DNA of 41,215 bases from Eubacterium sp. (GTDB lineage: Bacteria; Bacillota; Clostridia; Lachnospirales; Lachnospiraceae), in assembly GCA_016280325.1 (NCBI GenBank), contig JAEEGM010000072.1:1-41215 (forward strand). Reading direction: 5' to 3'. Every line of letters starts with the position of its first letter. The stretch's first letter is position 1. Under the pieces are notes generated by a model. The model made no database searches. It was not told where the DNA came from and saw only the letters and a program-made list of their open reading frames with translations. The position numbers and the translations under genes were made by a program. Positions 413 through 40,420 of the stretch are shown here, piece by piece.

Positions 413-2968
413 ATGGGACTGATAACTAAGATTGTAGGAACACACAGCGAGCGCGAGGTAAAGCGCGTCACGCCGATCGTGGACAAGATCGAGGCGTTGG
501 AGCCGGAGATGCAGGCTCTGTCGGACGAAGAACTGAAAGCAAAGACCGACGAATTCAAAGGAAGATTGGCAGGGGGAGAAACCCTCGATGATATCCTGCC
601 GGAGGCGTACGCCGTCGTAAGAGAAGCATCGAAGAGAACCATCGGCCTCAGGCACTTTCGCGTACAGTTGATAGGTGGTGTGATCCTCCACCAGGGACGA
701 ATCACCGAGATGCGTACCGGTGAAGGAAAGACGCTCGTATCGACGCTGCCGGCTTACCTGAACGCTCTGGAAGGAAAGGGCGTCCACATCGTGACGGTCA
801 ATGACTACCTGGCACACCGTGATGCGGAGTGGATGGGAGCGATCCATCGTTTCCTCGGCCTGACCGTAGGTGTGATCCTGAACTCCATGGATAACGACGA
901 GCGCCGTGAGGCGTATAACTGCGATATCACCTATGCGACGAACAATGAACTGGGCTTCGATTACCTGCGTGACAACATGGTGATCTACAAGGAGCAGCTC
1001 GTACAGCGTGAACTCAACTACGCGATTGTCGACGAGGTGGACTCGGTCCTGATCGATGAGGCGAGAACGCCGCTCATCATCTCCGGATCGAGCGGAAAGT
1101 CGACCAAGATCTACGAAGCCTGCGACAACTTCGTTCGTCAGTTGAAGCGTGGTACCGAGAAAGAACTCTCCAAGATGGACCTCATTATGAAGGAAGAGGC
1201 CAATGAGACCGGAGACTATGTAGCCAACGAGAAGGAGAAGACCGCCAACCTGACACAGCAGGGTATCGAAAAGGCGGAGCGTTTCTTCCATCTGGAAAAC
1301 CTGGCGGATCCTGAGAACCTGGAGATCCAGCACTGCATCAACCTGTCACTTCGCGCGCACGCGCTGATGCATCGCGACAAGGACTATGTGGTACAGGATG
1401 ATCAGGTGCTGATCGTCGATGAGTTCACCGGCCGTATCATGCCGGGAAGACGTTATTCCGACGGCCTTCATCAGGCGATCGAGGCGAAGGAGAAGGTTAA
1501 GGTTAAGCGAGAGTCGAAGACATTGGCGACGATCACGTTCCAGAACTTCTTCAATAAATATAATAAAAAATGCGGTATGACCGGTACGGCGGTAACCGAG
1601 GAGAAAGAGTTCCGTGAGATCTATGGCATGGACGTCGTAGAAGTACCGACGAACCTTCCGGTTCAGCGTATCGATCAGCAGGATTCCGTATACAAGACAA
1701 AGCGTGAGAAGTTGAACGCCGTGGTTCATGATATTCAGGAAGCACATGAGAAGGGACAGCCGGTACTCGTCGGAACGATCAACATCGATTCGTCCGAGGA
1801 GATCTCAGCCATGCTGAACAAGGTCGGTGTCCGTCATAAGGTGCTGAACGCAAAATTCCATGAGATGGAGGCCGAGATCATCGCCGATGCCGGCCAGAAG
1901 GGAGCCGTGACCATCGCCACCAACATGGCCGGTCGTGGTACCGATATCCAGTTGGGCGAGGGCGTGAAGGAACTCGGAGGCCTGAAGATCATCGGTACCG
2001 AGCGTCATGAGTCGAGACGTATCGACAATCAGTTGCGCGGTCGTGCCGGCCGTCAGGGAGATCCGGGTGAATCGAAGTTCTATATCTCACTCGAAGACGA
2101 CCTGATGCGACTCTTCGGCGCACAGAATCTGATGAATATGTTCAACTCTCTGGGAATCCCGGAGGGCGAGCAGATCCAGCACAAGATGCTGACCAACGCC
2201 ATCGAGCGTGCCCAGAAGAAGATCGAGAGCAACAACTACGGTATCCGTAAAAATCTTCTCGACTACGATCAGGTCAACAATGAGCAGAGAGAGATCATCT
2301 ATGCTGAGCGTTTCCGTGTACTTGACGGAGACAACATGCGCGATGTCGTACTCGGCATGATCGAGGAGCAGGTAGAGCGTTATGTCGGTCATGTGGTCGG
2401 AGAAGATCAGGGACCGACAGCAGAGAATATGGCAGAGCTGAATGAGCTGCTTCTGCCGATCATCCCGATGGAGCCGATCCAACCGGCTGACTATGAGGGT
2501 AAATCAAAAGAAGAATTAATGCAGGAGATCAAGGAACGCGCAATCCACCTCTATGAAAGTAAGGAAGCGGAGTTCCCGGAGCCGGAGCAGATCCGCGAGA
2601 TCGAGCGTGTCGTAATCCTTCGTGTGACCGACTCGCACTGGATGAACCACATCGACGATATGGATCAGCTTCGCCAGGGAATCGGTCTGCAGAGTCTCGG
2701 CCAGCGTGATCCGGTGGTTGAGTACCGTATGCAGGGCTTTGACATGTTCGAGGAGATGATCACCTCGATCCGTGAGGAGACCGTCCGCACGCTGATGCAC
2801 GTGCGTATCGAGCAGAAGGTAGAGCGTGAGCAGGTGGCTGAGGTAACAGGAACGAACAAGGATGACTCGGCAGCACCGACGCAGCGCAAGGTGGAGCAGA
2901 AGATCGGACGCAACGACCCGTGTCCGTGTGGCTCCGGCAAGAAGTATAAGCATTGCTGCGGCCGCTAA
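413..2968 (+). CDS. secA: Preprotein translocase subunit SecA
   Basis: Full-length SecA with Walker A region (MRTGEGKT), [14 protein letters not shown] and C-terminal SEC-C metal motif [13 protein letters not shown]. Start moved from GTG 359 to ATG 413 (MGLITKIVG) with upstream AAGGA. Confidence 0.98.
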
Positions 2969-3011
2969 ACATAAGCTTGTGGCCTAAAGAAGTGACTGAA
3001 AGGATATAAAA

Positions 3012-4118
3012 ATGGTAGCACTGGATAACATTCGAATCGAGCTTCAGGGGTTCGAGAAGCCGCTCGAGGAAGTGAAAAACAGCCTGAACCTCGAGGATAA
3101 AAAGCTCCGCATCCAGGAATTGGAGCGAAACATGGAAGCGCCGAACTTCTGGGATGACGCGGACGCGGCATCGGCTTCGATGAAGGAAGCCAAGGATCTC
3201 AAAGGCATCGTGGAAGAGGCGGATAGTCTGACATCCGCTTATGACGATATCATGACGCTGATCGAGATGGGAAATGAAGAGAATGACGAATCTCTGGTGC
3301 CGGAGGTTGAAAACGAATTCGAAGAATTTAAAACCAGATTTGACACATTGCGCGTATCAACGATGCTGACCGGCGAGTATGATACGGAGAACGCGATCCT
3401 CACTCTCCATGCGGGAGCGGGCGGTACCGAGAGTTGTGACTGGGCAAGCATGCTCAGCCGTATGTATCAGCGCTGGGCGGATAAAAAGGAATTCAAGGTG
3501 GAGATTCTGGATTCCCTGGACGGCGATGAAGCCGGACTGAAGTCCATCACGATGCAGATCGAGGGGCCGAATGCCTACGGATATTTAAAGAGTGAGCACG
3601 GTGTACACCGTTTGGTGCGTATCTCGCCGTTCAACGCACAGGGGAAGAGACAGACCTCGTTCGTATCCTGTGACGTGATGCCGGATATCGAGAGTGATAT
3701 CGACATCGAGATTGCGGACGATGATATCCGTATCGATACGTACCGCTCGAGTGGAGCCGGCGGACAGCATATCAACAAGACATCCTCGGCAATCCGTATC
3801 ACGCACTTTCCGACCGGAATCGTGGTACAGTGTCAGAACGAGCGCTCGCAGCATATGAATAAAGACAAGGCGATGCAGATGCTGAAGACGAAGCTTCTCA
3901 TCCTCAAGCAGCAGGAAAACCTGGAAAAAGAGCAGGGAATCCGCGGCGAGGTGATGGAGAACGGCTTCGGAAGCCAGATACGTTCCTACGTCATGCAGCC
4001 ATATACGATGGTGAAGGATCTTCGTACTGAGGCGGAGACCGGAAATGTTCAGGCAGTCATGGACGGGGATATTGACCTTTTTATGAATGCCTATTTGAAG
4101 TGGGTAAATGAGAACTGA
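3012..4118 (+). CDS. prfB: Peptide chain release factor 2 (no internal frameshift)
   Basis: RF family with GAGGQHINKTSSAIRITH motif; RF2-like N terminus (LERNMEAPNFWDD). Single uninterrupted ORF. Confidence 0.95.
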   Translation: MVALDNIRIELQGFEKPLEEVKNSLNLEDKKLRIQELERNMEAPNFWDDADAASASMKEAKDLKGIVEEADSLTSAYDDIMTLIEMGNEENDESLVPEVENEFEEFKTRFDTLRVSTMLTGEYDTENAILTLHAGAGGTESCDWASMLSRMYQRWADKKEFKVEILDSLDGDEAGLKSITMQIEGPNAYGYLKSEHGVHRLVRISPFNAQGKRQTSFVSCDVMPDIESDIDIEIADDDIRIDTYRSSGAGGQHINKTSSAIRITHFPTGIVVQCQNERSQHMNKDKAMQMLKTKLLILKQQENLEKEQGIRGEVMENGFGSQIRSYVMQPYTMVKDLRTEAETGNVQAVMDGDIDLFMNAYLKWVNEN

Positions 4119-4184
4119 CGGTGAAGAAACACGGAACGACTGAATTATGGAAGCACTACCTTATCTCACCAGGAGGGATAGCCT

Positions 4185-4787
4185 ATGAAGGAAGTTGTTT
4201 GCTTTTTCTTGAAAGGACGCGAATTCGGCGTTGATGTCTCACAGATGAAGACGATCGCGCACAGAGCCGAGCTTCAGCCACGCGAGGGCCTGCCGGAATT
4301 TGTCAAGGGGATCGTCGATATTCACGGTGAACAGATCCCTCTGGTGGATGTGGATCAGCTTCTTCAGATCCCGACCGGCAACGAGCGGAACGAGAAGCGA
4401 AATGTGATCTTCAACACCTCGTGTGGCTCCTTTGCCATTGAGTGTGACGGCATCTCGGAGATTGTCTCGGTAGAGGATAGCAGTGTCCGGGGTGTGCCCG
4501 GATTTTTCAGTGAAGACAAGACGGACTATGCGGATTGCGTGATACAGAAAAAGAATCACGCACTCGTGTTGGTGATAAACCCCGACCGGCTTTTGAACAG
4601 GGAGCAGAGTGCTTCTTTGAAAAAGATCATCGACGAGATCGAGGAGGAACGTCGGGAAGCCGAAAGACTGCGCCGTGAAGAGGAGCGCCGTCGCAAGGAA
4701 GAAGAGAAGAAAAAACGCGAAGAGGAGATTGCTCGCATGCAGGAAGAAGCGGGCGAATCCGACGCGAAGGAGGATAACAATGAGTAA
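4185..4787 (+). CDS. CheW-like domain protein with C-terminal charged coiled-coil tail
   Basis: CheW-like core (FVKGIVDIHGEQIPLVDVDQLL) followed by an E/R/K-rich tail. Confidence 0.85.
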   Translation: MKEVVCFFLKGREFGVDVSQMKTIAHRAELQPREGLPEFVKGIVDIHGEQIPLVDVDQLLQIPTGNERNEKRNVIFNTSCGSFAIECDGISEIVSVEDSSVRGVPGFFSEDKTDYADCVIQKKNHALVLVINPDRLLNREQSASLKKIIDEIEEERREAERLRREEERRRKEEEKKKREEEIARMQEEAGESDAKEDNNE

Positions 4788-5982
4788 GATAGCAGTATTG
4801 GGATACGGAACGGTAGGATCCGGTGTGGTAAAGGTGCTTGAGACCAACGCCTCGATCATCACGGAGAAGGCCGGCGAGACAATCGAGGTGAAGCGGGTAC
4901 TGGATCTGCGGGATTTCCCGGGCGATCCGGTGCAGTCGATCGTAACCCATGAGTTCACGGATATAGAGCAGGATGAGGAGATCTCTGTCGTTGTTGAGAC
5001 GATGGGAGGTACTAAGCCGGCGTATGACTTTGTCAAGCGCTCCATCCTCGCCGGGAAGAGCGTGTGTACCTCGAATAAGGCCCTGGTGGCTGACCACGGG
5101 ACGGAGCTGATCCGCCTGGCGAAGGAGAAGGGAGTTCACTTCTTCTTCGAGGCGAGCGTCGGCGGCGGAATCCCGATCCTCAGACCGCTTTCGCGGTGCC
5201 TGGTGGCCGACGAGCTGCTTTCGATCGACGGAATCCTGAATGGAACGACCAACTTCATTCTGACCAAGATGGCGGATGAAGGTTCGGCGTATGAAGATGT
5301 GCTGAAGGAGGCACAGGCGCTCGGATATGCGGAGGCAGATCCGACGGCGGATGTGGAAGGTTATGACACCTGCCGCAAGATCGCGATCCTGACGGCGCTG
5401 GCGTACGGTGCGCAGGTTGATTATGAGGACATCACGACAGTCGGAATCTCGAAGATTACGGCTACCGATATCGCCTATGCGAAAAAAATGGGCCGGGTGA
5501 TCCGTTTGCTGGGATCCAGTCGGCGTGAGAACGGCAAGCTCTACGCTCTCGTAGCACCGTTCATCCTCGGTGAAGAGGACCCGCTTTACAGCGTAAACGG
5601 CGTATTCAACGCGATCAAGGTGACCGGAAACATGCTCGGTGAGGTGATGTTCTACGGACAGGGTGCCGGCAAGGAGGCGACCGCCAGTGCCGTGGTAACG
5701 GATATCGTGGAAGCCGTGAAGAACCGTGACATCCCGGTGGAGATCCGTTGGGACGAGAGAAAACAAGTAGTCGAGTCGATGGATACGATGAAAAATCGCT
5801 TCTTCGTGCGTCTTGAGACCGCTGAGAAGGACAAGGCAGTAGAGGTGTTCGGAGGAAAGACGGTCATCGACGGCGTGGCGGACGGAGAGTTCGGACTCGT
5901 GACCGAAGAGATGACAGAGAAGGAATTTGATGCAAAAATAGCCGGATTCGCGACATGCAGGTCGACGATCCGCTATAAATAA
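4780..5982 (+). CDS. hom: Homoserine dehydrogenase
   Basis: MSKIAVLGYGTVGSGVV NAD-binding N terminus, ILNGTTNFILTKM and ALGYAEADPTADVEGYD motifs. ATG 4780 overlaps the upstream stop. Confidence 0.96.
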   Translation: MSKIAVLGYGTVGSGVVKVLETNASIITEKAGETIEVKRVLDLRDFPGDPVQSIVTHEFTDIEQDEEISVVVETMGGTKPAYDFVKRSILAGKSVCTSNKALVADHGTELIRLAKEKGVHFFFEASVGGGIPILRPLSRCLVADELLSIDGILNGTTNFILTKMADEGSAYEDVLKEAQALGYAEADPTADVEGYDTCRKIAILTALAYGAQVDYEDITTVGISKITATDIAYAKKMGRVIRLLGSSRRENGKLYALVAPFILGEEDPLYSVNGVFNAIKVTGNMLGEVMFYGQGAGKEATASAVVTDIVEAVKNRDIPVEIRWDERKQVVESMDTMKNRFFVRLETAEKDKAVEVFGGKTVIDGVADGEFGLVTEEMTEKEFDAKIAGFATCRSTIRYK

Positions 5983-5994
5983 TGGAGATAACAG

Positions 5995-6903
5995 ATGGTT
6001 TCAAATGGTCAGATAACCGGGATGATCCTGGCGATCCTCGTTCCGATGATCGTGGTTTGCGCGCTCTTTGTCTATATGAAGCGTCGCGTCCGGCTGAAGG
6101 GGTTTATCATCGTATTTTTCTTCGGTGTGGCAGGATTCATCTGGCAGGCATTTATCAAGAGTTATATTATCGCCTTCGCGGTTTCGCCGCTGGGACAGAG
6201 TGAATTTTTCCAAAGTGGCGTCGGCCTTGTCTGCGGGCAGGCAATCTCGTCTCTTTTGGATGCTGCTTTTGTGGCGCTGGCGTTGGTATGGGCGCTGTAT
6301 TTCTGCAACCTGCGCGACGTTGAGTTGAAGAGGGCACCGATGATCGGACTCGGCTTTGGCTGTGCGTACGCGATCATGAATTATATCGTTCGTTATGCGC
6401 CGTATCTGGTGCGCGCGTTCAAGATCCGCTCGGGAACCTTTACGGGAACGGAGCAGGAACTCCAGGAGGTTCAGGGGCTCACGGTTGAGAACATGTATCT
6501 GTTCATCCTCTCGTGTGTGCTCTACACCGTGGTTATCGTCGGTGTGACGCTGCTGATGGGATTTTTCCATCGGAATCACTTCCGCGGCCGGACATTTTTG
6601 GCAGGCCTGATTCCGTCCTTCCTCATCGGATTTCTGAATGTCCTTTTCCCGGTCCTGATGTCGGACATGGTATCGGCGGTTATCTACAACGTATTGCTGG
6701 CGCTGTTCGCCTGCTATTCGATGTGGTTTTTGACAGGGTACTTCAAAACGGGAAAACTGATGATTGCAAAGGATAAGCCGGCGGATGTGCTTCTTCCGAA
6801 GGAGGACGGATCCGGTAAGGGCGGAAAAGGCGGTAAGGTTCAGAAAAATACCCAGAAGGCTAACTTTACCTATGCCGGGAATAAGAAGAAGCTAAAGAAA
6901 TGA
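5995..6903 (+). CDS. Multi-pass membrane protein, possibly YhfC-like
   Basis: Multiple hydrophobic helices with K/G-rich cytoplasmic tail; family assignment tentative. Confidence 0.6.
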   Translation: MVSNGQITGMILAILVPMIVVCALFVYMKRRVRLKGFIIVFFFGVAGFIWQAFIKSYIIAFAVSPLGQSEFFQSGVGLVCGQAISSLLDAAFVALALVWALYFCNLRDVELKRAPMIGLGFGCAYAIMNYIVRYAPYLVRAFKIRSGTFTGTEQELQEVQGLTVENMYLFILSCVLYTVVIVGVTLLMGFFHRNHFRGRTFLAGLIPSFLIGFLNVLFPVLMSDMVSAVIYNVLLALFACYSMWFLTGYFKTGKLMIAKDKPADVLLPKEDGSGKGGKGGKVQKNTQKANFTYAGNKKKLKK

Positions 6904-6940
6904 TTGAAAAATGAACACATGGCGTGAAAAAATGCATGAA

Positions 6941-6969
6941 AAAAAGGCATCCGTATGGATGCCTTTTAT
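6941..6969. terminator. Bidirectional rho-independent terminator
   Basis: AAAAAGGCATCC-GTAT-GGATGCCTTTT hairpin between convergent genes. Confidence 0.85.
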
Positions 6970-7043
6970 AATATGCTTTTAACTTTTGCCTGTCTGTTCG
7001 CCCGATGCATGGCTTCGCGTCGGATACGCCGTCGCTTGTCCGA

Positions 7044-7409
7044 TCAGCTCTCAGCCAGGATTGACTCGATCGTTGACTGAATCTGATCCGGATCGAACGG
7101 CTTCTGCATGAACTCAAGAGCACCACGCTTGATAGCCTCTACCATCTTTTCTTTCTGTCCGGCTGCGGTGACCATGATGACATTGGCGTCCGCGTCCTCC
7201 TCGATAATTAAATCCAGAGCTCCGAGTCCGTCCATCACCGGCATAGTGATATCCAGTGTGACGATATCGGGTTTCAATTCGCGGTATTTTTCAATACCTT
7301 CTTCTCCATTTTTTGCTTCACCGACGACTTCGTGTCCGAACCGCTCAAGGATGTTGGCTAACATCCTGCGTGAGGTACGGGAATCGTCGACAATCAAAAT
7401 CCTTGCCAT
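7044..7409 (-). CDS. CheY-like single-domain response regulator
   Basis: MARILIVDDSRTSRRML...PDIVTLDITMPVMDGLG...QKPFDPDQI; no output domain. Confidence 0.95.
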   Translation of the reverse strand: MARILIVDDSRTSRRMLANILERFGHEVVGEAKNGEEGIEKYRELKPDIVTLDITMPVMDGLGALDLIIEEDADANVIMVTAAGQKEKMVEAIKRGALEFMQKPFDPDQIQSTIESILAES

Positions 7410-7460
7410 GTTGATTCTTCCTCCCATTATTACTTTTATGACTTGTCAAATGCTGATAGT

Positions 7461-8330
7461 TTAATCGAATTTGACGATCAGATTGCATTTTTTACCTTCC
7501 AGGAATACCGGAAGAGAGTAGTATTCACCACTCGAGTCGATCGCCTCGTCGAAGGAGAGCTTCGGAGGCATCATATCCATTGAAATATTCTGGAAACTGA
7601 GCTCGGCAGCGTACAGGCCGTTGACACAGTTGGTGAACTCGGCAATGGAATCCAGCGCATCCTCGTCAACCACTCCAAACTCTTCCTTGGCATAGCCGTC
7701 TGCCATCATCAGGATATCATCGTCCTCGCCGGTAAATCCGAGCAGGCACTGATAGTCGCCGATGGTGTGCTGGTAAGCTGCGTACTTCGGCTTTCCACCC
7801 GATACGAACTCACCCGGTGCGATTCGGATAAAGGTGTTGATGAAACGCACGATATTCCGCAATGTCAGACCAATCAGGTCGAGATAGCGCTTGTCCGGCA
7901 CATCGACAAAGGCCGGCAGCATTCCTTCGATATTGGCATCACGAATAGCCTTCATGATCGAGTTCGAGAAATCGTTCTCTTTCTGGAAGGCTGTAAGGTT
8001 ATAGTCAATCTCATCGTGGCTTAAACATCCGTTCTCATCCAAAGCCTGCACGAAAAGCAGGTACGGATTGCTCTGAAGACCAAGCAGATAGTTGACATCG
8101 GACTCGGTCAGATACCCCTTTTTTACAGCGAGATCACCGAAACGTTCATCGGATTGCACCTGAAGGTAGTTTAGCTCCATCACCTGGCTGGATGTCAGCA
8201 ACCCTTCGCTCTCGGCGATAAGTCCTAGTTTAACGCGGTTCGCCTTGATGTAATTCATGCAAGAGTCGTATTGATCAGCGGTGATTTTCTGGTTTTCCAA
8301 AAGATAGTTTCCAAAAAACTGACTAAACAT
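7461..8330 (-). CDS. CheX-like chemotaxis phosphatase with N-terminal MshEN-like repeats
   Basis: C-terminal half has EFTN...MMPP, matching the CheC/CheX E-x2-N-x21-P pattern. N-terminal half has two 24-residue (K/R)-x-G-...-G-x-L-...-Q segments. Confidence 0.75.
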   Translation of the reverse strand: MFSQFFGNYLLENQKITADQYDSCMNYIKANRVKLGLIAESEGLLTSSQVMELNYLQVQSDERFGDLAVKKGYLTESDVNYLLGLQSNPYLLFVQALDENGCLSHDEIDYNLTAFQKENDFSNSIMKAIRDANIEGMLPAFVDVPDKRYLDLIGLTLRNIVRFINTFIRIAPGEFVSGGKPKYAAYQHTIGDYQCLLGFTGEDDDILMMADGYAKEEFGVVDEDALDSIAEFTNCVNGLYAAELSFQNISMDMMPPKLSFDEAIDSSGEYYSLPVFLEGKKCNLIVKFD

Positions 8331-15113: not shown

Positions 15114-15485
15114 TCAGTATATCTTCTTGTATCCCGGATTAGCCAGCAGCTCCAGCTTGTTGTAGTACAGGTAGAGCTGCTGGACGCCGTTTTCCAGGTT
15201 GAAGTAGTGAACGATGTATGGAACCAGCAACACGATGAACAGGCCGGTGAGCACCAATAAAGCGATCTCATGGGTGATCAGGTAGGCCGGAACGGTGATC
15301 ACGGTGGCCAGGCCGAAGAGCACGGTCACGATCAGGTGGATCAGACGTTCGTGTTGGAAAAACCCGATCTGAACCTTCAGTCGCTCCAGTTCTTCTTCGG
15401 CCACGACCGACGGCAGTTCACCCGCCTTTTGGCCGGTCAGTTCTTCATAGTACTGAAGCGCGACACGAAGCCTGTTCTTATACAT
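15114..15485 (-). CDS. Small membrane protein of unknown function (123 aa)
   Basis: Two hydrophobic segments; overlaps the 3' end of leuA on the same strand. Confidence 0.65.
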   Translation of the reverse strand: MYKNRLRVALQYYEELTGQKAGELPSVVAEEELERLKVQIGFFQHERLIHLIVTVLFGLATVITVPAYLITHEIALLVLTGLFIVLLVPYIVHYFNLENGVQQLYLYYNKLELLANPGYKKIY

Positions 15486-17484
15486 GATTGGTCTCCTTTT
15501 GGTCGTTTCGATACTGGACCGGTGTCATGTTGTACTTTTTCTTGAACACACGATTGAAATGCTCGACATTCGGATAACCGACGGAAAGAGCGATACTCTC
15601 GACGTTCATCGTGCCATTTTTCAGGAGTGTTCTGGCCTTCTTCAGACGTACAGCGGTTAAAAGCTCTTTAAATGTTTTGCCGCTCTTGTCATGGATGTAC
15701 TTGCTGATATACGGCTCGGAGAGATGCATGTACTCGGCCATATCCTCGAGCGTTACGGAGCGGTAATTCTCCTGGATATAATTCATCATCTGGATCAGAC
15801 GGTCATCGCGGAACTCTTCGTTGTTTCGGACGGCCGGCAGCTTGTTGACGCAGACGGTCAGTGCGTGGATGGAAGCGGTGATGATATCCTCGTGGATACC
15901 GACGCCCCAGTATACGTCGCCGTCGCAGGTGATGCTGACGTAAGCGATCGCCTTGGAAGAGGAGCCCTGTGTCAGCGCGTGCTCTTCATAGGTGGTCAGC
16001 TGGTAGCTGATCCCGAAAAACTGCTTGATCGTATTGCTGACGGCATCGAGACGTCCGTTTCCGACAGCATCCACGATCCGATCCTTGTCGCCGCAGGTGA
16101 TGGTCACCGAAGCCATGATGCCGTTTACCTGACGGAAGTGGCATTCGTTGATCTGGAATACCGGCGTCGGGTTGATGTAGTGATCGGCAAAAATATCGTA
16201 GATCCACTGAGGAGAAAGCTCCTTGTGTTCCTCGTCGGATACGCTCTTCATCAGGTAGCCGACTTCCTCGCGCATCTTTTCCGGAAGGATGATACCGAAG
16301 TTCTGCTTGAGTGTATAGTTGACACCGCCCTTGCCGGACTGTGAATTGATACGGATAACATCGGAATCGTAGGTACGGCCGACATCCTTCGGATCCACCG
16401 GCAGGTACGGAACGCACCACATATCCGTTTTGCCGTCCTCACGCCACTGCATGCCCTTTGCGATGGCATCCTGATGGGAGCCGGAGAAGGCGGTAAACAC
16501 CAGATCGCCGGCGTACGGCTGACGCGGCGGGACACTCATGCGCGTATAGGATTCGTAGCGCTCGCGGATCTCCTTCATGTTGGAGAAGTCCAGTCCCGGA
16601 TCGTAGCCGTGAGAGAACATATTCATCGCGATGGTCACGATGTCGACATTTCCGGTACGCTCACCGTTTCCGAACAGAGTTCCCTCGATACGGTCGGCAC
16701 CGGCCAGAACACCGAGTTCGGCAGTGGCGACACCCTCGCCGCGGTCATTGTGCGGATGGAGAGAGAGAACGACTCCGTCACGGTACTTCAAGTGTTTATG
16801 TACATACTCCAACTGGCAGGCGAAGACATGCGGCATCGCGTTCTCCACCGTCGTCGGGATGTTGATGATAACCTTCCAGTCAGGGGTCGGTTTCCAGACA
16901 TCGAGAACCGCGTTGCAGACCTCAACGGCATACTCAACCTCAGTGCCCGGGAAACTCTCCGGACTGTATTCAAATCGGAAGTTGCCGTCGGTCTGATCCG
17001 CCAGCTCCTTCAAAAGGATGGCGCCGTCAACGGCGATCCTCTTGATCTCTTCCTTGTCCTTTTTAAAAACCTGCTCGCGCTGCGCAACGGAAGTCGAGTT
17101 GTACAGGTGTACAACTGCGCAAGGAGCTCCCTTCACGGCCTCGAAAGTCTTTCGGATGATATGCTCACGTGCCTGTGTCAGAACCTGAACCGTGACATCC
17201 TCCGGAATCTTGTTCTGATCGATCAGTGCGCGCATGAATTCGTATTCGGTATCCGAAGCGGCCGGAAAACCAACCTCGATCTCTTTGAAGCCGACCTGAA
17301 CCAGGAGGTCGAAGTAATCCAGCTTCTCCTGCAGGCTCATCGGCTCGATCAAAGCCTGGTTTCCGTCGCGAAGGTCTACGGAACACCAGATAGGTGGTTC
17401 GGTAATCTCATTTTTCTTCACCCAGTCATAGGTCACCTCAGGTGGCATGAAATAGGGCGGTTCGTATTTTTCATATCCTTTCAT
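15478..17484 (-). CDS. leuA: 2-isopropylmalate synthase (LeuA2-like) fused to a C-terminal AraC-type HTH DNA-binding domain
   Basis: Residues about 1-559 are LeuA (SVDLRDGNQALIEPMS, LHPHNDRGEGVATAELG, C-terminal regulatory domain). Residues about 560-668 are AraC-type HTH_18 (SVTLEDMAEYMHLSEPYISKYIHDKSGKTFKELLTAVRLKKARTLLKNGTMNVESIALSVGYPNVEHFNRVFKKKYNMTPVQYR). Confidence 0.93.
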   Translation of the reverse strand: MKGYEKYEPPYFMPPEVTYDWVKKNEITEPPIWCSVDLRDGNQALIEPMSLQEKLDYFDLLVQVGFKEIEVGFPAASDTEYEFMRALIDQNKIPEDVTVQVLTQAREHIIRKTFEAVKGAPCAVVHLYNSTSVAQREQVFKKDKEEIKRIAVDGAILLKELADQTDGNFRFEYSPESFPGTEVEYAVEVCNAVLDVWKPTPDWKVIINIPTTVENAMPHVFACQLEYVHKHLKYRDGVVLSLHPHNDRGEGVATAELGVLAGADRIEGTLFGNGERTGNVDIVTIAMNMFSHGYDPGLDFSNMKEIRERYESYTRMSVPPRQPYAGDLVFTAFSGSHQDAIAKGMQWREDGKTDMWCVPYLPVDPKDVGRTYDSDVIRINSQSGKGGVNYTLKQNFGIILPEKMREEVGYLMKSVSDEEHKELSPQWIYDIFADHYINPTPVFQINECHFRQVNGIMASVTITCGDKDRIVDAVGNGRLDAVSNTIKQFFGISYQLTTYEEHALTQGSSSKAIAYVSITCDGDVYWGVGIHEDIITASIHALTVCVNKLPAVRNNEEFRDDRLIQMMNYIQENYRSVTLEDMAEYMHLSEPYISKYIHDKSGKTFKELLTAVRLKKARTLLKNGTMNVESIALSVGYPNVEHFNRVFKKKYNMTPVQYRNDQKETNHV

Positions 17485-33070: not shown

Positions 33071-33095
33071 AGAGTATAATGAGTCAGGAGATACC

Positions 33096-34436
33096 ATGTT
33101 TGAAGATTTTTCCGGAGAATACCATAAAAAGCTTCGCACACCCGAAGAGGCGGTATCGGCCGTAAAGAGCGGGGACTGGGTGGACTACACCTCCACGCTC
33201 GGTATGCCGATCCTTCTTGATCGGGCACTTGCGAAGAGGCGGGATGAGTTGACGGATGTCAAGATCCGCGGCAATCTGATCGTCGGTCCGATCGAGACCG
33301 TCGAGTGTGACCCGACGCAGGAGCACTTTGTCTATCACTCCTGGCATTGTTCGGCCTACGAGCGCCAACTCTGTGACAAGGGTTTGTGTTATTATATCCC
33401 AATGGTCTTCCACAACAATGCCGCGTACTATGAATTTTTCATCAAAGTGAACGTGGCGATGGTCAGCGTATCACCGATGGATAAGCACGGATACTTCAAC
33501 TTCTCCGTGAACACCGGCGTGGCGGGGCCGATCTGTGAGAAGGCGGATATCGTGATCGTCGAGGTCAATAAAAATATGCCGAAGATCCACGGCGGCTACC
33601 ACGAGTGCATCCATATCTCGGAGGTGGATATGATCGTCGAGGGTGAGCACGAGCCGTTCACCAACTTCCTCCCGATCAACCCGACGGCGGAGGATAAAAT
33701 GATCGCCGAGCACATCATCCCCTACATCGTGGACGGAGCGAATCTCCAGCTCGGTGTGGGTGCCGTGCCGAACGCGATCGGTGAGGCGATAGCGGCCTCG
33801 GACATCAAAGATCTGGGGATGCATACGGAGCTTTGTACCGACGCGTATCTGGAGCTCCATCGCAATGGTAAGCTCACAAACAAGAAAAAGACGATCAACC
33901 GCGGCAAAGGTGTATTCGGTTGTGCGGTGGGATCAGCGGAACTCTACGAGTGGCTTGACGACAATCATGGGATCGCCGCTTATCCGTTGGAGTACGTGAA
34001 TCGTCCCAGCGTGATCGCGCAACTTGACAATATGGTATCCATCAACGCCTGCGTGGCGGTGGATCTGTACGGACAGGTGGCGGCCGAGAGCGCGGGCTCC
34101 AGACAGATCAGCGGAACCGGCGGACAGTTGGACTTTCTGGCGGGGGCGTCCGCGTCACGCGGCGGCAAGGCTTTTATCTGCATGAAGTCGGTTCACCGCC
34201 ATCGGGACGGATCGATCCAGTCGAGGATCGTGCCGCAGTTCAACGGTGACATCATCACGTCACCACGCAGTCAGGTGTACTTCATCGCTACCGAATACGG
34301 TGTGGTGAATCTGGAAGGACAGTCCACCTGGGAGAGGGCGGAGGCCCTGATCTCCATCGCGCATCCGGACTTTCGGGATGAACTGATCCGCGAGGCGGAG
34401 GGAAGACGGATCTGGCGAAGATCCAACAAGCGCTGA
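33096..34436 (+). CDS. Acetyl-CoA hydrolase/transferase family protein (butyryl-CoA:acetate CoA-transferase-like)
   Basis: SGDWVDY...LDRALAKRRDELTDVKIRG, QLGVGAVPNAIGEA, ISGTGGQLDFLAGA. Confidence 0.85.
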   Translation: MFEDFSGEYHKKLRTPEEAVSAVKSGDWVDYTSTLGMPILLDRALAKRRDELTDVKIRGNLIVGPIETVECDPTQEHFVYHSWHCSAYERQLCDKGLCYYIPMVFHNNAAYYEFFIKVNVAMVSVSPMDKHGYFNFSVNTGVAGPICEKADIVIVEVNKNMPKIHGGYHECIHISEVDMIVEGEHEPFTNFLPINPTAEDKMIAEHIIPYIVDGANLQLGVGAVPNAIGEAIAASDIKDLGMHTELCTDAYLELHRNGKLTNKKKTINRGKGVFGCAVGSAELYEWLDDNHGIAAYPLEYVNRPSVIAQLDNMVSINACVAVDLYGQVAAESAGSRQISGTGGQLDFLAGASASRGGKAFICMKSVHRHRDGSIQSRIVPQFNGDIITSPRSQVYFIATEYGVVNLEGQSTWERAEALISIAHPDFRDELIREAEGRRIWRRSNKR

Positions 34437-34541: not shown

Positions 34542-35315
34542 ATGGATAAAAAAGTAATGAGATCCGGCGCAACGTTGGCGCTGGCCGGCCTTTTGCTGGT
34601 ATCGACCGTGTCTGTGACAGGAAGTCCCCCCGGGATTTCTTTGGCGAAAAAGAAGATCGCCCTCAGCAGGACAAAGGCCGAAGTAAAGTCCGGTGGGAGC
34701 GTGACACTCACACTGAAAAATGTACCGGCGAAGTTCAAAAAGAAGGTCAAGTGGTCAACCTCGAATAAGAAGGTTGCTACCGTAAAGGCAAAGAAGAATC
34801 CGAGAAAGGCTGTGGTGAAGGTGGTTGCCGCGGGAGAAGCGACCATCACAGCCAGGTATAAGAAAAAGGCCTACAAGTGCCGGATCATCGCCAAGGATAC
34901 GAGCAGAGCGGAGCCGAGTGCGAGCCCGGAGGCATCAGCGGATTCGAGCGCAAGCCCCGATCCTGAAGCATCAACAGAACCGAGCGCGAGCCCCACGCCG
35001 ATACCGAGTTACAAGTCGATCACGCAGGAAGAGGCCAGGGAGATGATGAAGCGTGACGATGGCCATGTGATCGTGGATGTGAGACGACTCAGTGAGTACA
35101 CGACCGGGCACATCGAAGGCGCGATCCTCATTCCGAATGAGTCGATCACGACGGAGCGGCCGGCAAAGCTACCGGATCTGAATCAGATCATCCTGGTCTA
35201 CTGCCGAAGTGGCAATCGCAGCAAGCAGGCATCACAAAAGCTCGGAGACATGGGTTACACACAGGTATACGAATTCGGTGGGATCAACACATGGGCAGGA
35301 CCTATTGTAAAATAA
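34542..35315 (+). CDS. Secreted rhodanese-domain protein (signal peptide, Ig-like domain, Ser/Ala/Pro linker, rhodanese)
   Basis: Signal peptide MDKKVMRSGATLALAGLLLVSTVSVTG...; BIG2-like VKWSTSNKKVATVKA; linker of SAS/PSASP repeats; rhodanese VIVDVRRLSEYTTGHIEGAILIP...VYCRSGNRSKQASQKL. Confidence 0.9.
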   Translation: MDKKVMRSGATLALAGLLLVSTVSVTGSPPGISLAKKKIALSRTKAEVKSGGSVTLTLKNVPAKFKKKVKWSTSNKKVATVKAKKNPRKAVVKVVAAGEATITARYKKKAYKCRIIAKDTSRAEPSASPEASADSSASPDPEASTEPSASPTPIPSYKSITQEEAREMMKRDDGHVIVDVRRLSEYTTGHIEGAILIPNESITTERPAKLPDLNQIILVYCRSGNRSKQASQKLGDMGYTQVYEFGGINTWAGPIVK

Positions 35316-35353
35316 AAAAAATGATCAAAAAGATCAAAAAAACGGAGGTAATC

Positions 35354-37513
35354 ATGAAACAGAAGAGATGGATGAAAAAAGTGTTGGCAACCATGCTGAC
35401 AGCAGCGATGGCAATGACGGTGGCCGTGGTGGCACCGGCGAAAACATCGGAAGCGAAGAAGGCTGTAATCGACCCGGAATGTCTTCCGATCACACTCGAG
35501 TACAACAATCACGGTGACAGCAAGATCATGTATAACTCGAATTACGCACTGGAGGACTGCATCGGGTATCGGAAAGAAAAAGCAACCTATTCGATCAAGA
35601 TCAAGAATAAAAAGGTGGCAAAGGCCGTAAAGAATACGGACAAGGATAGGGATTCCCTCTATCTCATCGTCGCGACGGGTGTCGGAACCACCAAGGGAAC
35701 GGTCTATGAGAAGGTCGGAAAGAAAAAGAAGACCAAGCTCGGCGTGGTCAAGATCAAGGTCAAGAAGGCGAAGATGGCGGATGTTATCGACAAGTCAATC
35801 TCGCCGATCCAGGACGAGGATTTCGATCGTGACATGACAATCTCTCCCTTCCTGAAGCAGAACAGTATCGATTTCGCGTCCCGGATCCACAAGTATCTTT
35901 TGAACAGTGAGCACGGAAAGGTTCACTTCAAAAAGAGCGAATATAAGATTTCCTATGAGGTCCAGGGTGATCCGGAATATGACGATGAAGGAGAAATCAC
36001 ATCTTACAATCCTCCGACGGTATCGGTCAATGACAAGGGAATCGTTACCGCGCTGACGCCTGGACATTCCAGTGTGAATTTCGTGGTCACTTTCTCGGAT
36101 AAGTCGAAGTTTGAGTGGACGACAAACTTCGAAGTATTGGAATCGGTGCTGAAGAAAGAAAACAAGTATTCGCTTGACAACATTCGTGATCAGATCGTCG
36201 GTCTCGACAGCCTGGTTCCCGTTGTTCAGGATGGCGAGGAGAAGATGGTCCCGCAGATCGGTTTCGATAACGCGGCAACCACACCGGCGTTCAAGGCCGT
36301 AGAAGAGGAAGTACACAACCGTCTCGAGATGTACGGCTCGATCGGACGCGGTTTTTCGGAAAAATCCAATGAGAGTACGGACATATACGAAGGCACCAGA
36401 GACAAGATACTCGACTTTTTGGGCGCCGACCGTGGCACCTATACCTGCTTCTATACCAACAGCACGACAGATGGATTGAACAAGCTTGCCAGCGCGCTGA
36501 TCACCAGTAAAAATGATCTCGTACTGACGACACGCATCGAGCATCACGCGAATGACCTCTCCTGGAGAGAGCGCTGCAAGGTAGACTGGGCCGAGGTAAA
36601 AAAGTCAGACGGTCGAGTGAATTATGATCAGATCGAGAAAAAACTGAAGAAATACAAGGGTAAGGTAAAAGTTGTATCTATCTCCGCGGCTTCCAATGTG
36701 ACCGGATATGTGATGGATGTGCATCGTGTAGCCAAGATGGCACATAAATACGGAGCGATGATCGTAGCGGACGGCGCCCAGATCGTGGCACATCGAAAGT
36801 TCGAGATGATTGGTGATCCCGATGATCCGGATGACGATATCGACTTTATCGCCTTCTCGGCACACAAGATGTACTCGCCGTACGGCGGCGGTGCCGTTGT
36901 CGGCCTGAAGAAGGAGCTTTATAAGCACATGCCGACCTTCTACGGAGGAGGAACCGTTCAGATCGTGGGAGATACCTGGGTAGACTACAAGGAGAAGACG
37001 GTTGCGGTCTATGAGGCCGGTTCGCCGAACTATCCGGGCGTTGTCGGTCTCGGCAAGGCAATCGAGGTACTGAACGATGTCGGATTTGATGCCATCCGGG
37101 CACACGAGAAGGAACTGAACAGGCGTCTGATCGATGGCCTGAAGAAGTATCCGACGATCAAGATTTACGGTGATTCCGAGAATATCGATGACCGTGTCGG
37201 CGTGATCACCTTCAATCCGTCGGATGTCAATACGCAGCTTCTGGCTGAGGAATTGAGCAAAATCGGAGCCGTGGCAACCAGACGCGGACAGTTCTGTGCG
37301 CATCCGTATGTATGGCGCCTGATGGGGATTCCGGATTCCGAACTGGAAGGCTATGAAGGCTGCGCAAGCGCGAAGACACCGGGTATGCTCCGTATCAGCT
37401 TCGGTATCTACAATACGGTTGAAGAAGTGGATAAATTCCTTGAAATCCTGCCGAAGGCTTTGGAAAGCGCGAAGAAACGTCAGGAGATTTCGGATGCCGC
37501 ACCGGAATTCTGA
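35354..37513 (+). CDS. Secreted class V aminotransferase / cysteine desulfurase-like PLP enzyme with N-terminal Ig-like regions
   Basis: Signal peptide MKQKRWMKKVLATMLTAAMAMTVAVVAPAKTSEA; SufS/CsdA-like GFDNAATT, EHHAND, ADGAQIVAH, PLP-Lys FSAHKMYSPYGGGAVVG, RRGQFCAHP. Confidence 0.9.
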   Translation: MKQKRWMKKVLATMLTAAMAMTVAVVAPAKTSEAKKAVIDPECLPITLEYNNHGDSKIMYNSNYALEDCIGYRKEKATYSIKIKNKKVAKAVKNTDKDRDSLYLIVATGVGTTKGTVYEKVGKKKKTKLGVVKIKVKKAKMADVIDKSISPIQDEDFDRDMTISPFLKQNSIDFASRIHKYLLNSEHGKVHFKKSEYKISYEVQGDPEYDDEGEITSYNPPTVSVNDKGIVTALTPGHSSVNFVVTFSDKSKFEWTTNFEVLESVLKKENKYSLDNIRDQIVGLDSLVPVVQDGEEKMVPQIGFDNAATTPAFKAVEEEVHNRLEMYGSIGRGFSEKSNESTDIYEGTRDKILDFLGADRGTYTCFYTNSTTDGLNKLASALITSKNDLVLTTRIEHHANDLSWRERCKVDWAEVKKSDGRVNYDQIEKKLKKYKGKVKVVSISAASNVTGYVMDVHRVAKMAHKYGAMIVADGAQIVAHRKFEMIGDPDDPDDDIDFIAFSAHKMYSPYGGGAVVGLKKELYKHMPTFYGGGTVQIVGDTWVDYKEKTVAVYEAGSPNYPGVVGLGKAIEVLNDVGFDAIRAHEKELNRRLIDGLKKYPTIKIYGDSENIDDRVGVITFNPSDVNTQLLAEELSKIGAVATRRGQFCAHPYVWRLMGIPDSELEGYEGCASAKTPGMLRISFGIYNTVEEVDKFLEILPKALESAKKRQEISDAAPEF

Positions 37514-39004: not shown

Positions 39005-40420
39005 ATGGAAACTCTGGAAGAGGTTTTATCATCGATTGACGATTTTGTCTGGGGACCGGTAATGCTGGTACTTCTGTTGGGTACGGGTATATTTTTAACA
39101 ATTCGTACCCGGTTTATGGGATGGCGAAATCTCGGTTTTGCCCTGAAAAGCGGCTTAGGGAAGGAGGCCCGGACCAAGTCCAAAGGGACCGGAGATATCT
39201 CACCGTTTTCGGCGCTTACGACGGCGTTGGCGGCGACGATCGGAACGGGAAACATCGTCGGTGTCGCTACGGCTATGGTGGCCGGCGGACCGGGCGCTCT
39301 GGTATGGATGTGGATGTCCGCATTTTTCGGCTTGACATCGAAGTTTTCAGAGTGTATGCTTGCGATCAAGTACAGAGAGGTGAATGAGCAGGGCGAGATG
39401 TCCGGCGGACCGATGTACACGATGAAGCATGCGTTTAAGCATAAAAGCTTTGGTTCGATCCTGGGGTGGTTCTTTGCGTTCTTCGCGGTGGTAGCTTCCT
39501 TTGGAATCGGTAACCTGACACAGGCTAACTCGATCACGGAAGCGCTGAACAATACCTTCGGTTTTGAACCCTGGATCGTGGGAATCATCCTGACGGTGGT
39601 ATCTCTGGTTATCATCGTCGGAGGCATCAAGACTATTTCCAAGGTGTCGCAGTGGGTCGTGCCGCTGATGGCTATATTCTATCTCTTGGCCGGACTGGTC
39701 GTGATCGGATTTAATATCGGGAATATCCCGGAGGGCGTTGCGATCATATTCAAGAGCGCCTTTTCACTTGAGGCAGCAGGAGGTGCCGGTATCGGTATCT
39801 TCGTTTCCTCGATGATGCAGGCGATGCGCTTCGGTGTGGCCAGGGGGATTTTCTCCAACGAGGCCGGTATGGGTTCGGCAGCGATCACGGCAGCGGCCGC
39901 TACCACCGATAATCCGGTTCGTCAGGGATATATCAATATGACGGGAACCTTTTGGGATACCATCGTGGTTTGTACTGTCACAGGGCTCTGTATCGCCAGC
40001 TCCGGCGTACTCTCGACACCGGAAGTGATAAACGGCACGGTGAAGGGCGCCGGCGTCACGATCGCCGCGTTTGAGACGGCGCTGGGACCGGTCGGCGGAT
40101 GGCTGGTCACGATCGGGATCGCGCTTTTCGCATTTTCAACGATACTTGGTTGGGAGTATCACGGTGAGAAGGCGTTTGAGTATCTCTTCCATACGCATCG
40201 ATATAATATGGTCTATCGCGTGTTGTTTTCGCTGATCGTATATCTCGGCGCGACGACGACGCTGACCGTGGTATGGAACTTCTCCGATATCGCGAACGCG
40301 CTGATGGCAATCCCGAACCTGATATGTCTGTTGGTTCTCAGCAAGGAGATTGCGGACGATATGAAGGCGTTTCAGCCGACCATCCATGCTTCCGGGAAGA
40401 AACGCAGTAAAGCATCATAG
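39005..40420 (+). CDS. Sodium:alanine/glycine symporter, AGCS family
   Basis: GTGDISPFSALTTALAATIGTGNIVGVATAMVAGGPGALVWMW signature; multi-TM. Confidence 0.95.
   Translation: METLEEVLSSIDDFVWGPVMLVLLLGTGIFLTIRTRFMGWRNLGFALKSGLGKEARTKSKGTGDISPFSALTTALAATIGTGNIVGVATAMVAGGPGALVWMWMSAFFGLTSKFSECMLAIKYREVNEQGEMSGGPMYTMKHAFKHKSFGSILGWFFAFFAVVASFGIGNLTQANSITEALNNTFGFEPWIVGIILTVVSLVIIVGGIKTISKVSQWVVPLMAIFYLLAGLVVIGFNIGNIPEGVAIIFKSAFSLEAAGGAGIGIFVSSMMQAMRFGVARGIFSNEAGMGSAAITAAAATTDNPVRQGYINMTGTFWDTIVVCTVTGLCIASSGVLSTPEVINGTVKGAGVTIAAFETALGPVGGWLVTIGIALFAFSTILGWEYHGEKAFEYLFHTHRYNMVYRVLFSLIVYLGATTTLTVVWNFSDIANALMAIPNLICLLVLSKEIADDMKAFQPTIHASGKKRSKAS

Follow-up and report, generated by a model that had tools for sequence, protein, structure and literature searches.

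The window, the whole stretch of 41,215 nucleotides from Eubacterium sp. analysed here, carries on its forward strand a rhodanese ORF (34542-35315, 257 aa) followed, after a gap of 38 bp, by a pyridoxal phosphate (PLP)-enzyme ORF (35354-37513, 719 aa), the adjacent same-strand arrangement that an earlier note on this DNA had described. The features of the two genes are as follows:

34542..35315, + strand: rhodanese, predicted exported; 257 aa, with signal peptide, Big_2 Ig-like domain, Ser/Pro linker and rhodanese domain
34542..34646, + strand: predicted Sec signal peptide of the rhodanese, cleaved between ...SLA and KKK (from sequence)
34653..34865, + strand: Big_2 (PF02368) Ig-like domain, residues 38-108; Pfam 37.7 bits
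35022..35297, + strand: rhodanese domain PF00581, residues 161-252; Pfam 63.8 bits
35202..35222, + strand: rhodanese active-site loop CRSGNRS with Cys221 (from sequence)
35354..37513, + strand: SufS-like PLP enzyme, predicted exported; 719 aa, Shine-Dalgarno GGAGG just 5'
35354..35455, + strand: predicted Sec signal peptide of the PLP enzyme, cleaved between ...SEA and KK (from sequence)
35456..36157, + strand: Lys-rich double beta-sandwich spacer, residues 35-268 (234 residues); AlphaFold2
36263..37438, + strand: Aminotran_5 catalytic domain PF00266, residues 304-695; Pfam 256 bits
36866..36868, + strand: Lys505, PLP Schiff-base lysine (FSAHK), invariant in 95/95
37295..37297, + strand: Cys648, aligned with the persulfide cysteine of B. 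subtilis SufS, Cys361; invariant in 95/95
37361..37363, + strand: Cys670, a second cysteine that marks the exported clade, in 95/95 exported sequences against 0/29 non-exported cousins

Read directly from the sequence, AGGAAAGGAGAGAAGGCGT-ATG stands before 34542 at the rhodanese start, with the Shine-Dalgarno AGGAAAGGAGAG 5' of the ORF, and ACGGAGGTAATC-ATG before 35354 at the start of the PLP enzyme; good ribosome-binding sites thus precede both signal-peptide starts, indicating that the signal peptides are not an accident of annotation. The predicted signal peptides read MDKKVMRSGATLALAGLLLVSTVSV, continuing to SLA before KKK, and MKQKRWMKKVLATMLTAAMAMTVAVVAPAKTSEA before KK; a positive n-region, a hydrophobic core and a cleavage site were recognised from the sequence and by a heuristic with controls. 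Sec-type export of both proteins, as the earlier note had proposed, therefore agrees with the sequences, with the Shine-Dalgarno motifs at those starts, and with exported-like N-termini in all 74 scorable relatives of the PLP enzyme; the motifs CRSGNRS, FSAHK, EHHAN and RRGQFCAHP were likewise all found.

The first protein is classed as a rhodanese by an above-threshold PF00581 match and a Cys-containing CRxGxRS loop, and its homologues are lipoproteins or Sec-Ig proteins. The exported rhodaneses that were scored retain the CR[ST]GxRS loop, save L167, a degenerate match without the exact motif. Exported rhodaneses with extra domains (Cyclophil_like2, Big_14) are found among L147 1354-2202, L153 1342-2178 and L168 1474-2550, the last being a rhodanese ORF whose long extension at the C-terminus has a TusA/DsrE-like look.

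The gene upstream of the pair (33093-34436, +) encodes a butyryl-CoA:acetate CoA-transferase homologue scoring 535 bits, below the curated cut-off of 675. A Na+/alanine symporter (39005-40420), 1.5 kb downstream, would fit alanine uptake, yet is given no weight because it was seen in none of the inspected relatives' neighbourhoods. Elsewhere in the window, a 668-aa ORF (15481-17484, -) joins a 2-isopropylmalate synthase (HMGL-like, IPMS_D2, LeuA_dimer) to an AraC-type HTH_18 domain at its C-terminal end, which makes an unusual fusion of LeuA with a regulator. An Rfam search of the window gave no regulatory RNA match, and promoter and terminator scans did not rise above chance.

Fold and active site of the PLP enzyme

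The AlphaFold2 model of the PLP enzyme, built from a 60-sequence alignment, has a mean pLDDT of 88.8; modelled alone, the N-terminal half forms two beta-sandwich domains (mean pLDDT 92.6), which Foldseek matches best, though weakly (TM about 0.3), to surface domains of S-layer, Rib and SraP type. Ig-like Lys-rich regions had been suggested for both proteins: this stands for the rhodanese through Big_2, whereas the N-terminal half of the desulfurase-like protein lacks a Pfam Ig match and is likened to such domains through its modelled beta-sandwiches. Foldseek matches the catalytic half best to B. subtilis SufS (5xt5; TMt 0.89, 31% identity), and SufS supplies the best PDB matches by both sequence and fold, in keeping with the earlier assignment of a SufS-like catalytic domain, every catalytic residue of which is present.

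Assignment to the class V fold-type I PLP domains follows from the PF00266 match (256 bits) and the Schiff-base Lys505 (95/95). By alignment to SufS, all members of the exported clade share Lys505, Cys648, Arg643, Arg680, His397/398, Asp473 and Gln476, apart from one sequence that stops short of Arg680; the B. subtilis residues Arg376, Arg356 and His121 thus have invariant counterparts in R680, R643 and H397. Changes specific to the family also lie near the site: Gly occupies the place of E. coli SufS His55 (90/95 exported members), Phe647 replaces His, and Cys670 is carried by an insertion forming a loop that is absent from SufS. Two further cysteines, C365 (89/95) and C408 (92/95), are largely specific to the exported clade; since six sequences lose C365 and three lose C408, never jointly, a disulfide between them is not claimed.

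Against the curated SufS model TIGR01979 the window enzyme scores 261 bits, below the cut-off of 475.1, and it is therefore called SufS-like, not a SufS member; its exported relatives score 266-298 bits, and the enzyme reaches no NCBIfam cut-off. SufS enzymes are cytoplasmic and work with a SufE/SufU acceptor, whereas signal peptides run throughout this clade and no suf genes were recognised among the neighbours. SufS-like catalytic competence, as predicted from the catalytic residues, is well supported.

Exported clade and pairing with the rhodanese

A scan of 84,980 species genomes returned 140 encoding stretches, the best 80 of which were kept; these derive mostly from ruminant-gut Clostridia and include the cultured strains Lachnospiraceae P6B14 (L015) and Ruminococcaceae P7 (L042), the latter with the dockerin form. 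Export was scored by a heuristic, with unrelated ORFs in the same loci as control: among the best 80 of 140, all 74 relatives with a visible N-terminus were exported-like, against 107/363 unrelated ORFs. Four export modules occur in the clade, namely Sec with an Ig-like/Lys-rich region, a lipoprotein signal with lipobox, dockerin (type I, PF00404, confirmed in L027 and L054), and plain Sec. In a tree of 133 catalytic domains the 95 exported sequences form one clade (support 1.0, branch length 1.03), within which parsimony requires at least six changes of export module, dockerin apparently having arisen twice (L054 as against the L027 type). Retention of the enzyme outside while its anchors are swapped is strong evidence that it works there, and export of the clade is well supported by these predictions. 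The wall-associated display suggested earlier finds partial support, in relatives of the window protein whose lipoboxes or dockerins do suggest surface retention.

The nearest sequences beyond the clade are Clostridia proteins with 36-47% identity, mostly of about 440-490 aa; the 38 non-exported relatives have no credible signal peptide, two heuristic matches falling inside the start of the conserved domain. Among these cousins, L174 and L176 directly precede DsrE_2 sulfur-carrier genes (7830-8279 and 7420-7893, respectively) and L180 adjoins a gene for a YgaP-like TM protein (5789-6013), neighbours as expected of persulfide producers; such cousins probably constitute an undescribed cytoplasmic desulfurase subfamily in Clostridia. 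Plasmid spread was considered and set aside, the lone match standing at 36%.

Of 39 genomes of the window genus, 9 carry the exported desulfurase; a close rhodanese was found in 5 of these and in none of the other 30 (Fisher p = 2.2e-4, uncorrected for shared ancestry). The two genes are adjacent in G000, G583 (L015) and G586 (L187), unlinked in G605, and fused in G589 (L012), where Big_2, rhodanese and Aminotran_5 domains share a single 907-aa ORF. In a second family, an exported lipoprotein rhodanese accompanies 6/12 desulfurase-positive genomes versus 10/103 negative ones (p = 0.0016, again uncorrected for ancestry). The secreted pair expected in other genomes accordingly recurs, by adjacency, fusion and gene-presence association in two lineages, but is not obligatory: no rhodanese was detected in 4/9 congeneric desulfurase-positive genomes. 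Beyond the window genus the two genes are unlinked and co-occurrence is weaker. Given a base rate of 61/391 genomes in the class, and a close exported rhodanese (E <= 1e-20) in 17/50 carrier genomes, many of them incomplete MAGs, the exported-rhodanese family is wider than the desulfurase, with a tight partnership only in the window genus.

Clustering of 683 neighbour genes from 80 loci yielded no broadly conserved partner, and an operon outside the window genus was accordingly rejected; a sulfur-import partner was likewise set aside, no YeeE-type PF04143 transporter being present in 18 congeneric genomes. Recurring neighbour lipoproteins outside the genus comprise an LRR protein, a HAD hydrolase and an L,D-transpeptidase-like protein. 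Secreted HAD-like hydrolases (PF12710) lie near the exported desulfurase in L024, L026, L028, L036, L056, L078 and L082, adjoining it in several; phosphorylated cofactors, PLP among them, could be their substrates. In L016, where the closest relative (74%) is truncated, the stretch downstream of it (1623-7328) encodes on the same strand a secreted Tyr-phosphatase/YkuD protein and, past that, products of sulfate assimilation genes: PAPS-reductase-type CysD, CysN/APS kinase and a solute-binding protein.

A proposed extracytoplasmic sulfur-mobilising module

The reading preferred here, to which a probability of about 60% is given, is that the pair forms an extracytoplasmic sulfur-mobilising module, generating persulfide at the surface from environmental cysteine and relaying it to the rhodanese. 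It draws on features established for the module computationally: predicted export signals and fold, invariant catalytic residues, monophyly, and genetic pairing and fusion. The PLP enzyme would be secreted via Sec, fold, and acquire PLP outside the membrane; it would then strip sulfur from L-cysteine (or a close analogue of it) in the environment, yielding L-alanine and a Cys648 persulfide. The exported rhodanese would take this persulfide onto Cys221 and, still outside the membrane, pass it on to a small acceptor: sulfide or thiol persulfide would form from a thiol, thiocyanate from cyanide. Cys670 probably helps to resolve the persulfide, by sulfide release or relay. There is precedent for single steps: sulfur transfer from a cysteine desulfurase to a rhodanese is described for A. 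vinelandii RhdA in a reference cited in PMC10215317, and BsrV is a PLP enzyme that works outside the cytoplasm, in the periplasm (PMC7890096). Weighing against the module are the sub-threshold TIGR01979 score, the Gly at the His55 position, a rhodanese that many carriers lack or keep unlinked, and the missing YeeE-type importer in the 18 congeneric genomes.

The closest competitor, held tentatively and as less probable than the module, is a stand-alone extracellular sulfide generator converting cysteine to H2S and alanine through Cys648/Cys670 chemistry and an outside reductant, with the rhodanese optional. In most lineages the enzyme stands as a lone gene with no conserved neighbours, a close rhodanese is missing from many carriers, and invariance of Cys670 is confined to the exported clade; against this reading speak the cases in the window genus where the exported rhodanese is fused to the enzyme, adjacent to it or co-occurring with it. 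It is unlikely that the substrate is instead a different one, whether selenocysteine, a disulfide such as cystine, or a modified amino acid, with the rhodanese lying nearby incidentally: the Gly at the His55 position, Phe647, the Cys670 insertion and the failure to reach any NCBIfam cut-off would suit such a role, but the cysteine, the lysine and both substrate-binding arginines are invariant, and the rhodanese fusion also speaks against it. Rather less likely still is cyanide detoxification, in which cysteine sulfur and plant-derived cyanide would form thiocyanate in the rumen and shield the producer's surface. Most carriers being ruminant-gut Clostridia, it is noteworthy that HCN removal has been linked to rumen microbial rhodanese and sulfur supply (PMC10618278) and that extracellular rhodanese has been reported in anaerobic cyanide metabolism (PMC5778177); none of the genes beside the pair was recognised as cyanide-related, however, rhodaneses are versatile, and cyanide crosses membranes, making export unnecessary. 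The sulfide and cyanide readings are partly the same chemistry, so that the confidences attached to them overlap. That both proteins are ordinary and cytoplasmic, as textbook cysteine desulfurases are, with artefactual start sites, is highly improbable, being rejected on the Shine-Dalgarno sequences at both signal-peptide starts, and countered by the four kinds of export module found clade-wide and by the differing non-exported cousins.

As a component of the preferred sulfur-mobilising module, the window enzyme resembles the SufS/CsdA group II desulfurases (TIGR01979; 5xt5, E. coli SufS) in its fold (TMt 0.89), PLP lysine, RxGxxC-loop cysteine, substrate arginine and EHHAN histidine; unlike them, it is predicted to be exported, shares about 30% identity, misses the curated cut-off, carries an extra loop with the invariant Cys670, has Gly at the His55 position, and has no suf genes recognised alongside. 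The Family 2A encapsulin cargo cysteine desulfurase (NF041166), the second-best NCBIfam match (188 bits), is also SufS-like and found in an unusual compartment, but that is a cytoplasmic nanocompartment entered without a signal peptide; the window enzyme reaches 188 of the 800 bits needed for membership, and no encapsulin was recognised nearby. PvdN (NF051467) and BsrV are likewise PLP proteins outside the cytoplasm: PvdN, which is Tat-exported and tailors pyoverdine, has the class V fold too and matches the window enzyme weakly (20 bits), and sulfur mobilisation is known for neither. BsrV is a racemase of different fold (PMC7890096). The rhodanese is predicted to be exported like E. coli PspE and the extracellular rhodanese of Coprothermobacter, which take sulfur from thiosulfate, whereas the window type has an Ig-like domain or is fused to a desulfurase. 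No exported desulfurase partner is known for either. PspE produces periplasmic sulfane sulfur (PMC10215317), and the extracellular enzyme of Coprothermobacter is reported from an anaerobe (PMC5778177).

New here are the commitment of a whole clade to export, by anchors that are interchangeable, and its second invariant cysteine. The earlier interpretation is partly supported, its observation being right and its idea broadly so. Cysteine desulfurases are an intracellular source of sulfur for Fe-S clusters, tRNA thiolation and cofactors, and no paper on an exported one was found in the open-licence literature; as such enzymes are known, as far as found, only inside cells, the clade points to undescribed cell-surface sulfur chemistry. 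At roughly even odds, gut Clostridia maintain a dedicated persulfide economy outside the cell, its members being a lineage of surface-displayed desulfurases, lipid-anchored, Ig-spaced or dockerin-bearing, for which Cys648 and Cys670 would be essential and which, with an exported rhodanese, would mobilise extracellular cysteine sulfur as H2S, thiol persulfide or thiocyanate. The clade poses a testable question, namely how a Sec-exported PLP enzyme acquires its cofactor, for which the L012 fusion and isolates P6B14 and P7 offer a ready system. If the reading is true, an exported clade brings persulfide chemistry to the surface of bacteria, with a supply of gut H2S or sulfane sulfur, effects on neighbouring organisms or cyanide detoxification as possible consequences.
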